64,000 bases of DNA. Origin: Marinilabiliaceae bacterium. GTDB lineage: Bacteria > Bacteroidota > Bacteroidia > Bacteroidales > Marinilabiliaceae. The position numbers were made by a program, and so were the translations under genes. This document shows, in pieces, positions 45,068 to 47,947 of this stretch (position 1 is its first letter; each line of letters starts with the position of its first letter). Location of the stretch: the NCBI GenBank assembly GCA_016933045.1, contig JAFGBR010000031.1, forward strand, positions 1 through 64,000, in the 5' to 3' direction. The notes under the pieces are model-generated. The model worked only from the letters and a program-made list of their open reading frames with translations, was not told where the DNA came from and searched no databases.

Positions 45068-45093
45068 GTAGTTAAGTTTACTTTTATATGAGA

Positions 45094-45121
45094 GGGTTTC
45101 CATTTATGGAAACCCTTTTTT
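45094..45121 (+). terminator. Intrinsic terminator after psd
   Basis: GGGTTTCCAT-TTATGGAAACCC with a perfect stem is followed by six T, ending the rsfS-psd operon. Confidence 0.9.
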
Positions 45122-45227: not shown

Positions 45228-45258
45228 AACAACCCCCTATATATTTATGGGGGTTGTT
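45228..45258. repeat. GC-rich hairpin upstream of the torF promoter
   Basis: A perfect 10-bp stem AACAACCCCC/GGGGGTTGTT encloses an 11-nt AT loop in an otherwise very AT-rich region, about 40 bp before the torF -33 element. No U-tract follows on either strand, so it is not a standard terminator; an operator or promoter-proximal structure is possible. Confidence 0.5.
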
Positions 45259-45298: not shown

Positions 45299-45329
45299 TT
45301 TGGAGTATAAATATAAATTTCTACATTTG
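45299..45329 (+). promoter_or_regulatory. Promoter of the torF-glnB-amtB module
   Basis: TTTG at 45299-45302, a 19-bp spacer and TACATTTG at 45322-45329 form a near-perfect Bacteroidota promoter. The predicted leader of about 85 nt contains a hairpin AAAGATC/GATCTTT at 45367-45387. Confidence 0.8.
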
Positions 45330-45421
45330 TACTGTTGTTGCCCCCTGAAAATGATTTTAGATGTAGAAAGATCGTCAGATGATCTTTATTGGATGTATTT
45401 ATTAACCTAAAACATACTGTA

Positions 45422-46069
45422 ATGAAAAGGACAATTTTAACTGTTGTTGTGGCCTTGTTTATGGCCGTTGGTGCATTTGCACAAGAGTTTAGTATTTCGA
45501 CTGATGTAGTAAGTCGTTATGTTTGGAGAGGGTCTCAGTTTGCTGCTGCTTCAGTTCAACCTGGTATTGGTTATTCAAATGGTGGTTTATCATTAGGAGC
45601 TTGGGGAAGTTATGATTTAGCAGCTGGAGTTGGCAGTGAATTAGATTTGTATGTAGGATACGATTTTGATTTTGGATTAGGGTTAATTGTAACAGATTAT
45701 TTTTTTCCTCAAGATCCAATATCTGCTCCAAAAGCTGGATACTTTGAATTTGACAGTTTACATACAGTTGAGGTAGGTGCTACTTATTCTGTTGGTAAAA
45801 TTTCATTAGGGGCTTATGTTTATGCAACTGCTGATAATAACGATATGTATTTTGAGGCTAGTTATGCATTCAACGATAATTTGTCATTAACTGTTGGTGC
45901 CGGAAATGAGTCTTATACAGATTCAGGTGAATTTAATGTGTGTAATATGGGTTTGTCGTACAGTAAAGAAGCTAAGCTTACTGAGTCATGGACTGTATCT
46001 CCTTTTGCATCATTTATTCTTAATCCAAATCGGGAACAGGTATTTCTTGTTGTAGGGGTTTCATTTTAA
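45422..46069 (+). CDS. TorF/Gcw_chp-type outer-membrane beta-barrel protein
   Basis: Predicted outer-membrane protein of 215 aa with a signal peptide (MKRTILTVVVALFMAVGAFAQ). Alternating beta strands (SISTDVVSRYVWRGSQFAAASVQPGIGYSNGGLSLGAWGSYDL) and a C-terminal Phe (VGVSF) fit a small barrel. The opening SxDVxSRYVWRG resembles the TorF/Gcw_chp family, which in many proteobacteria lies next to glnK-amtB. The same linkage is seen here, so a role in passage of ammonium or nitrogen compounds is a reasonable inference but unproven. The ATG at 45422 is chosen over an upstream start because it begins the signal peptide. Confidence 0.78.
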   Translation: MKRTILTVVVALFMAVGAFAQEFSISTDVVSRYVWRGSQFAAASVQPGIGYSNGGLSLGAWGSYDLAAGVGSELDLYVGYDFDFGLGLIVTDYFFPQDPISAPKAGYFEFDSLHTVEVGATYSVGKISLGAYVYATADNNDMYFEASYAFNDNLSLTVGAGNESYTDSGEFNVCNMGLSYSKEAKLTESWTVSPFASFILNPNREQVFLVVGVSF

Positions 46070-46080
46070 AAAATAAAAAT

Positions 46081-46214
46081 AAAACCGGGACGAGTTACCC
46101 ATTTATTCTCTTTTAAACCGAAAGCCAACTTATAATCCGTTTGTTAAAAGTTGGTGACTACAACTAGATACCGTTTATTTAATACCATCCGTTAGTAACT
46201 CTCCCGGTTTTTTT
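46081..46214 (+). ncRNA. Candidate structured RNA / attenuator between torF and glnB
   Basis: The 17-bp closing helix AAAACCGGGA(C)GAGTTAC (46081-46098, one bulged C) pairs with GTAACTCTCCCGGTTTT (46195-46211) and ends in a T-run, like an oversized intrinsic terminator. Inside is a second hairpin CCAACTT/AAGTTGG (46125-46154) plus two copies of ATCCGTT and an AAACCG that could compete for the 3' CGGTTT. It starts 12 nt after the torF stop and lies 60 nt before glnB. It matches no riboswitch class I can recognise. A long terminator hairpin or a small excised RNA are alternatives. Confidence 0.6.
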
Positions 46215-46274
46215 AAAATATGGTTAATGGATGGATGACCGAGTACGATAAAAAAATCTTAAATATTATTTCGT

Positions 46275-46631
46275 ATGAAAAAAATAGAAGCAGTTATTAG
46301 AAAAACCAAATTTGAAGAGGTTAAAAATGCTCTTCATGAGGTTGATATTGAATTTTTCACTTATTGGGAAGTTCGTGGTCATGGAAAAGCACATCAGGAG
46401 CGTATATACCGGGGCGTTATGTACGATACGAGTATTATTGAGCGTTATATGATCTCTTTTGTTGTTCGTGATATCAATCTTGATAAGTCTGTTAAAGCAT
46501 TGTTGAAATCGGCATATACCGGTGAAGTTGGAGATGGACGGATTTTTATCTCTACAATAGACCAGTCATTACAAATTCGTACCGGATTTGAAGGCGATGA
46601 ATCACTTTACGACAAAGAAACAGGTAAGTAA
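46275..46631 (+). CDS. glnB: Atypical P-II nitrogen regulatory protein
   Basis: P-II signal protein of 118 aa expected to form a trimer that binds adenine nucleotides and plugs or regulates AmtB. The beta-alpha-beta start (MKKIEAVIRKTKFEEVKNALHEVDI) and the B-loop YTGEVGDGRIFIS are canonical. The T-loop keeps Tyr50 (RGVMY, equivalent to Tyr51) but is one residue shorter, and the position of Gln39, which helps bind 2-oxoglutarate with Mg-ATP, is Ala39. Lys60 is Met59. 2-oxoglutarate sensing is therefore probably altered. Cotranscription with amtB (20-bp gap) supports a role in ammonium uptake control. Confidence 0.9.
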   Translation: MKKIEAVIRKTKFEEVKNALHEVDIEFFTYWEVRGHGKAHQERIYRGVMYDTSIIERYMISFVVRDINLDKSVKALLKSAYTGEVGDGRIFISTIDQSLQIRTGFEGDESLYDKETGK

Positions 46632-46651: not shown

Positions 46652-47890
46652 ATGGAAACAATTGATATAACGAAAGCATTGGCGGAGAACGCTTTTTCGA
46701 TAGATACATTATGGATATTGATTGCTGCAATTTTGGTATTTTTTATGCAGGCTGGTTTTGCCTTGGTTGAGGCAGGTTTTACACGATCTAAAAATACTGT
46801 GAATATTTTGATGAAAAATTTTGTAGACTTTGCATTTGGGTCTTTAATATTTTTCATTATTGGCTTTGGGTTTATGTTTGGCGATGATATTGCCGGTTTT
46901 ATAGGAACCCCCGATTTATTCTTTTCAAATGGATGGGAAGGTGGAGTTACAGGTTTAGGATTTTTGTTTTTTCAAACTGTTTTTGCTGCAACTGCTGCAA
47001 CAATAGTTTCAGGTGCAATGGCCGAACGTACACACTTTAGTTCGTATATGGTTTTTAGTATTGTTATTACCATGTTTATTTATCCAATTTCTGGTCACTG
47101 GGTGTGGGGAGGTGGTTGGTTAAGTGAGCTTGGTTTTCACGATTTTGCCGGTTCTACAGTTGTTCACTCTGTTGGTGGATGGGTTGGTTTAGTTGGAGCT
47201 GCTATGTTAGGTCCTCGTATTGGTAAGTTTAACGGAAAGACGAATGCTATTCCCGGTCAAAATCTTACTTTAGCAGGTCTTGGAGTGTTTATTTTGTGGA
47301 TGGGTTGGTTCGGTTTTAACCCTGGTTCGCAGTTAGCTGCAAGTGGTACTGATAATGCTTCGGCTATTTCGTTAATATTTGTAACTACAAATCTTGCAGC
47401 TGCTGCCGGTACTGTTGGGACTTTAATTACTGCCTGGATTAGATACGGAAAGCCATCGTTGTCGTTAACACTTAATGGTACATTGGCGGGCTTAGTTGCT
47501 ATTACTGCCGGATGTGATACTGTGAGTCCGGTTGGTGCTATGGTAATTGGTTTATTGGCTGGTGTTTTATTGGTGTTCTCGGTTAGTTTTATCGAGAGTG
47601 TTCTGAAAATAGATGACCCGGTTGGTGCTTCTTCTGTTCATGGTGTTGTAGGTGCTTTTGGAACCCTTATGGTTGGTTTGTTTTCAACTAGTGATGGATT
47701 GCTTTACGGTTTTGGTGGAAAATTGCTTTTGACCCAGTTTATTGGTGTTGTTTCAATTGGTGCATGGGCAATGGGGTGTGGATTTGTATTATTCTTTATT
47801 CTTAAGAAAACTGTTGGATTACGAGTTGATAAAAGGGTTGAAATTGAAGGTTTGGATATTTATGAACATGGTGAAAATGCATATAGTTAA
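46652..47890 (+). CDS. amtB: Ammonium transporter AmtB
   Basis: Amt/Rh-family channel of 412 aa with 11 predicted transmembrane segments. Seen are the family signatures (FFMQAGFALVEAGFTRSKNTVNI, GNxxFGS-like region, GSTVVHSVGGWVGLVGA) and the second pore histidine in GASSVHGVVGAFGTLMVG, giving the conserved twin-His pore. It conducts ammonium across the inner membrane as a trimer controlled by P-II. The start ATG at 46652 follows the glnB stop by 20 bp, and an upstream TTG is less likely. A strong terminator follows. Confidence 0.96.
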   Translation: METIDITKALAENAFSIDTLWILIAAILVFFMQAGFALVEAGFTRSKNTVNILMKNFVDFAFGSLIFFIIGFGFMFGDDIAGFIGTPDLFFSNGWEGGVTGLGFLFFQTVFAATAATIVSGAMAERTHFSSYMVFSIVITMFIYPISGHWVWGGGWLSELGFHDFAGSTVVHSVGGWVGLVGAAMLGPRIGKFNGKTNAIPGQNLTLAGLGVFILWMGWFGFNPGSQLAASGTDNASAISLIFVTTNLAAAAGTVGTLITAWIRYGKPSLSLTLNGTLAGLVAITAGCDTVSPVGAMVIGLLAGVLLVFSVSFIESVLKIDDPVGASSVHGVVGAFGTLMVGLFSTSDGLLYGFGGKLLLTQFIGVVSIGAWAMGCGFVLFFILKKTVGLRVDKRVEIEGLDIYEHGENAYS

Positions 47891-47904: not shown

Positions 47905-47947
47905 AAAAAGGAGGCATCTCAATTCGAGATGCCTTTTGCATTTTTTA
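47905..47947 (+). terminator. Intrinsic terminator after amtB
   Basis: A perfect GGCATCTC-AATTC-GAGATGCC stem is followed by TTTTGCATTTTTT, ending the ammonium module. Confidence 0.88.

Follow-up and report, generated by a model that had tools for sequence, protein, structure and literature searches.

A long-loop hairpin element at the junction of a porin gene and glnB-amtB in Bacteroidales

P-II is the central sensor of ammonium and AmtB its central transporter; in the Marinilabiliaceae genome considered here their genes follow a porin gene across a gap that holds a predicted RNA structure. What might such a structure do at this place, and does it recur at the same junction in other genomes? 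We analysed a stretch of 64,000 nucleotides (the window), in which all features given below lie on the forward strand. The genes glnB (P-II; 46275-46631) and amtB/amt (ammonium transporter; 46652-47890) are clearly identified by PF00543 (E 2.5e-20) and TIGR00836 (E 7.1e-137), as the preliminary description had named them. Its third name, torF, is less secure: the gene at 45422-46069 encodes a torF-like outer-membrane porin whose match to TIGR02001 (E 1.4e-8, 34.6 bits, from a profile search that took 45425-46066 with the first Met left out) falls below the curated cut-off of 47.15. By pattern match, a putative torF promoter of the Bacteroidota -33/-7 type, TTG-N19-TACATTTG, lies at 45300-45329; the -7/-33 consensus is that given in PMC7366714. 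A consensus terminator scan listed five hairpins, against 1.9 from shuffles, including short-loop terminator-like hairpins past amtB (47909-47937) and in the upstream flank of the torF unit (45090-45119). Given the promoter and these flanking hairpins, the structure appears to be internal to a single torF-glnB-amtB transcription unit.

The element was first described as a 134-nt structure with a 17-bp closing helix, a bulged C, an inner hairpin and a terminal T run, and refolding of 46081-46214 returned the same architecture. Its minimum free energy (MFE) is -33.9 kcal/mol, as against a mean of -19.75 for shuffles (sd 3.27; z -4.33), and none of 200 dinucleotide shuffles was as stable. In the MFE fold the 5' strand of the closing helix (46081-46098, with C46091 bulged) pairs with a 3' strand at 46195-46211, which is also recovered in folds of the growing transcript. 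The 96-nt interior thus enclosed contains an inner hairpin of 8 + 4 bp (46124-46155), predicted from position 46156 on in growing transcripts, and a small weak hairpin (46165-46181). A T7 run read in the sequence (46208-46214) forms a terminator-like 3' end. When the full 205-nt torF-glnB gap was taken, the long-range helix was reached by 0 of 60 dinucleotide shuffles. BLAST of the element against the genome that carries it returned no match but itself at E≤0.001. The repeated ATCCGTT words reported earlier are present in two copies within the element, with no role found for them. By eye, a 26-codon frame (46220-46300) begins 6 nt past the T run and runs out of frame over the glnB start, possibly for translational coupling, or by chance.

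For comparison we used glnB loci gathered by GlnB similarity, a non-random set of which 198 had a glnB start and 188 were classed after removal of duplicates. Thirty-one of these, chosen by eye from folds, carry a long-range element; 77 have torF and a gap of less than 60 nt, too short for the element; 30 have torF and a 60-300 nt gap with no long-range element; and in 50 no torF was recognised within 300 nt. In many Bacteroidales a long closing helix precedes glnB, with a sequence different from that in the window. In gaps of 90-290 nt, with a helix interior of 35-130 nt and with glnB genes lacking torF included, the strongest long-range helix was reached by none of the 60 shuffles in 24 of 57 glnB-upstream gaps and by at most three in 35. 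For control gaps, taken elsewhere in the window and in loci L062-L141 and delimited by a simple ORF-based definition of genes, the corresponding figures were 1 and 7 of 73. Twenty-one of the 24 best gaps belong to the 31 picked by eye, and three (L145, L148 and L200) lie outside that set. A visually clear element, in L122, fails the test (58/60 shuffles reach it), and the long-range helix of L037, where no torF was recognised, was reached by 2/60. The sole control gap to beat all shuffles, L134:1437-1532, lies between torF and a gene that looks by eye like an aminotransferase gene, and holds another long-loop hairpin with a T run. In the 200 nt 3' of TorF-family genes away from glnB, no long-range helix was found at the level of three shuffles or fewer (0/8); a ninth such gene had just 12 nt left on its contig. 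The element is real, and the Bacteroidales junction hairpin is genuine and recurrent.

Its distribution is nevertheless patchy. The element is lacking in both L033 and L034, the relatives that stand nearest to the window by GlnB: the former (79% GlnB identity) has other hairpins and a long-range helix that is not significant (31/60 shuffles), and the latter (73%) has a 44-nt gap. A run of at least four T within the last 24 nt is found in 25 of 30 trimmed elements versus 1 of 13 plain hairpins, the hairpins having been picked by eye and cut by eye to stretches of differing length. The 77 gaps shorter than 60 nt, and the plain hairpins that occur elsewhere mostly without a T run, indicate that the element is dispensable; it is perhaps exchangeable for a stability hairpin.

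The preliminary description had counted complete constitutive termination together with a separate glnB promoter against its proposal; no canonical glnB promoter was found in the torF-glnB gap of the window. None of the 31 element gaps contains the motif TAnnTTTG (2.5 expected), nor do the 77 torF-glnB gaps below 60 nt (0.8 expected) or the 30 other torF-glnB gaps (0.9 expected). Among the 50 regions upstream of glnB in which no torF was recognised, 31 have the motif (7.6 expected) and 19 have full promoters (1.0 expected), all expectations being from mononucleotide shuffles. This promoter contrast is conservative, because at least two of the loci filed in the class without torF (L034 and, by eye, L078) are in fact linked to torF. 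As TAnnTTTG is missing from every element gap, expression of glnB-amtB probably needs read-through. The distance from the trimmed element to the ATG has a median of 38.5 nt (range 17-113, n = 30) and in the window is 57 nt, or 60 nt from the T7 run; it exceeds 50 nt for 10 of the 30 elements, the window included, which leaves room for an unusual promoter. A strict sigma54-like site was found in 0/30 element gaps (0.04 expected) and GG-N10-GC in 1/30 (2.5 expected). The lack of canonical glnB promoters may be compatible with unusual ones.

The preliminary description had looked to covariation in related torF-glnB gaps. This is seen in two groups of relatives, B and C, and the window's own sequence has no homologue among 100 relatives. 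In group B the element is present in six of the nine genomes of genus g3, within the window's family, the other three having either a gap of 34 or 35 nt or a plain hairpin; 10 of 32 pairs are changed on both sides, a count reached by 0 of 500 shuffles. Group C comprises 12 genomes of genus g13, also of the window's family, and L186 from another genus. Here the sequence of the closing helix varies around a steadier loop: 12 of the 13 sequences have ACCTTTATC in it, and 9 of the 13 have ACCTTTATCGCCA. In an alignment of eight group C sequences, pairing holds in 99.0% of cells and covariation scores 0.318 (0.110 shuffled), both values exceeding all 500 shuffles; pairs changed on both sides number three, which is no excess (242/500 shuffles reach it). 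With all 13 sequences in a hand-made register, 153 of 156 cells pair, compared with a maximum of 134 in 2000 shuffles in which strands were dealt among the sequences, and both-sided change is seen in 12 of 12 pairs; this register was set by hand on the innermost pair, so the test leans towards structure. Groups B and C both show compensatory changes. Group A (Bacteroides, Parabacteroides and L168) has common loop words that differ from those of the other groups. RNAalifold returned 0 pairs for the group A alignment, which we attribute to misaligned helices, and we make no covariation claim for this group.

A covariance model built from the eight group C sequences (R1) gave a match adjacent to glnB in all 12 g13 genomes having a glnB match, eight of them training genomes and four outside the training set, and no match in the two g13 genomes without one. 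Every strong match of R1 (≥39 bits), and of a second model built from group B (R2; ≥77 bits), adjoins glnB, the six strong R2 matches all being training sequences. Away from glnB there are weaker R1 matches in G056 (two), G100 and G007, and weak R2 matches in G034 and G010.

Is the window copy itself related by sequence to these elements? BLAST against the 100 relatives gave a best E elsewhere of 0.0107, with short matches. R1 lists 26 matches over 12 kb up to E 10, and the window element is not one of them. With R2 it ranks first of 32 matches in 8 kb, matching end to end at 21.7 bits (E 0.0022), another stretch of the window scoring 21.6 bits and default filters leaving the window element unlisted. 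On local alignment to 29 relatives' elements, the scores for L177 and L175 were reached by 4 and 7 of 400 shuffles, respectively. The best overall alignment score was reached by 246 of 400, so that the likeness to groups A and C is not significant. The window copy is treated here as sharing the predicted architecture and the place of its relatives' elements, no sequence homologue having been found in the genomes searched. If the element indeed stays while sequence and porin change, it would be a clean case of position and architecture being conserved and sequence not, and family searches would have difficulty in detecting it.

The porin does change. Some genomes of g3 and g13 have BBP2 (PF07642) rather than TorF as the porin ahead of the element, an assignment made by profile match for the L057 protein and by reading for the other loci. 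A search of 15 genomes showed BBP2 in 11 of them, with one copy in each and coordinates adjoining the glnB match. The group C element stands behind TorF in L060 (G058) and behind BBP2 in L180 (G012), and the group B element behind TorF in L059 and behind BBP2 in L057. Since it is kept across unrelated porins, the element belongs to the junction and not to the 3' end of one porin gene. In L098 a 311-aa transposase-like frame (by eye) occupies the porin's place, with the element and glnB still there.

Of 95 regions upstream of torF, 41 have words of the type GGGGGT/ACCCCC within 200 nt of the gene (3.4 expected); such words also precede all five BBP2 genes examined, a count that has no shuffle control. 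Upstream of glnB the counts are 4 of 31 for element gaps (0.9 expected), 1 of 107 for torF-linked gaps without the element (1.1 expected) and 9 of 50 for regions without torF (3.2 expected). By eye many of the words form pairs, with a spacing of about 50-54 nt in one orientation or of 37-39 nt when inverted, and the window has copies at 45232-45254 and a GCCCCC at 45340. These words are a candidate operator of a Bacteroidota nitrogen regulator, and their place before the porin suggests regulation at the promoter of the first gene.

We consider it reasonably probable that this is a cis-acting element within the torF-glnB-amtB unit that acts like a long-loop intrinsic terminator or a 3'-end barrier. 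It would probably set the ratio of porin to glnB-amtB, a leaky stop keeping glnB-amtB below the porin. Transcription would begin at the torF promoter. With polymerase at 46208-46214, the 3' strand would zip onto a 5' strand made some 110 nt earlier, closing over the pre-folded inner hairpin beside the U run. Many transcripts would then end past torF, or be trimmed to the hairpin, so that the porin mRNA would be stable; the remaining ones would read through to yield less P-II and AmtB. Folds of the growing transcript agree with this order of events: the 5' strand is only weakly paired until the 3' strand emerges, and the predicted energy, -15.5 kcal/mol at 46198, has reached -33.2 kcal/mol 12 nt later at 46210, beside the U run. 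A hand-picked 7-bp competitor, AGTTACC/GGTGACT, was tried as an antiterminator and rejected: with it the fold is 2.0 kcal/mol less favourable than that of the free prefix, and the outer 10-bp helix is left in place. Termination itself, partial read-through and any control of read-through are what we infer, the terminator reading being based on the predicted structure, the T run, the position, the lack of a canonical glnB promoter, and the recurrence and covariation among relatives. Against a terminator, the 96-nt interior is unusual, and the element is missing from the list given by the consensus scan; its lack in the two relatives nearest by GlnB, its dispensability, the room for an unusual promoter and the want of a sequence homologue of the window copy also count against this reading.

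The main rival to the terminator reading is a hairpin for mRNA stability or processing, which would block 3'-5' exonucleases or be cut within the helix so that torF mRNA outlives glnB-amtB, with no termination involved. Sister genomes do have plain stable hairpins at the junction, mostly without a T run, and differential decay of operon segments is reported in PMC5927463. Such a barrier would explain neither the run of four or more T near the end of 25 of the 30 long elements and the T7 of the window, nor the near-invariant loops of group C, which would be superfluous to it, and we regard it as rather unlikely. A somewhat lower probability still attaches to a nitrogen-responsive attenuator, a regulated form that overlaps the terminator reading, in which a protein or ligand would bind the interior and prevent or promote the closing helix. 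The gene context and the retention of the group C loop words despite a changing helix favour this idea, but MFE folds of transcript prefixes give no strong antiterminator, no Rfam family matches at threshold, the loops vary between groups, the GGGGGT/ACCCCC words point to control at the promoter, and the 77 distinct torF-glnB gaps below 60 nt have no room for an element. Control by nitrogen status through the element is thus possible but unsupported. We hold equally doubtful the broader proposal that the Bacteroidales porin-glnB junction carries an undescribed regulatory-RNA superfamily, in which a fast-turnover closing-helix terminator would carry a conserved sensory or protein-binding loop and nitrogen would set read-through into glnB-amtB.

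Explanations that place the function of the RNA elsewhere fare less well. A trans-acting sRNA released from the 3' end of torF mRNA, with the conserved loop as its seed, would suit the size, the T-run end and the conserved loops, and intra-operonic sRNAs are described for Bacteroides thetaiotaomicron in PMC7366714. The strong R1 and R2 matches are nonetheless all beside glnB, the gaps are without canonical promoters, and a 10-nt complement of the loop was found in two of four group C loci, at differing places, and also in one control locus; we think this reading improbable. The rod with an internal bubble would also suit a housekeeping RNA, such as 6S RNA in a diverged form, and RF00013 and RF01685 are both unmatched in the window's genome, although RF01685 matched none of the controls either, which makes its absence there weak evidence. 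The element is missing from the junction in many relatives and has no promoter of its own, and where RF01685 does match, in 10 of 61 genomes, the matches are all below the cut-off and away from known glnB matches, so that this is a very improbable explanation.

The preliminary description had taken the element for an undescribed structured RNA unlike the glutamine riboswitches, and the Rfam search agrees: at gathering score there was no match for the window or for 20 relatives' loci, relaxed E values giving sub-threshold matches only. Searches of the openly available literature gave no paper on a mechanism at the torF-glnB junction of Bacteroidota, and none of the words sought in PMC8040213 occur there. 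Among known systems, the malE-malF REP element is an intercistronic stability hairpin. It resembles the present element as a stable structure between the gene for an envelope protein and the genes that follow, from which it differs in that our element ends in a U run and has one genomic copy by BLAST. 6S-Flavo RNA has a rod-like shape. Its model (RF01685) has 108 positions and it belongs, like the element, to Bacteroidota; it is classed as not cis-regulatory in PMC2864571. The same source describes the glnA RNA (glutamine riboswitch, RF01739) as preceding P-II and ammonium transporter genes. RF01739 is cyanobacterial and marine, whereas our element has the same gene neighbours in Bacteroidota and is unmatched by that family both at gathering score and at E≤10. 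With an intrinsic terminator or intercistronic attenuator the element shares a G+C-containing stem that is followed by U7 inside a transcription unit. Intrinsic terminators have loops of 3-8 nt, whereas the element encloses a 96-nt interior with a hairpin of its own, and in group C, unlike in intrinsic terminators, the loop is conserved. The long-loop junction hairpin is new in detail and probably ordinary in principle.
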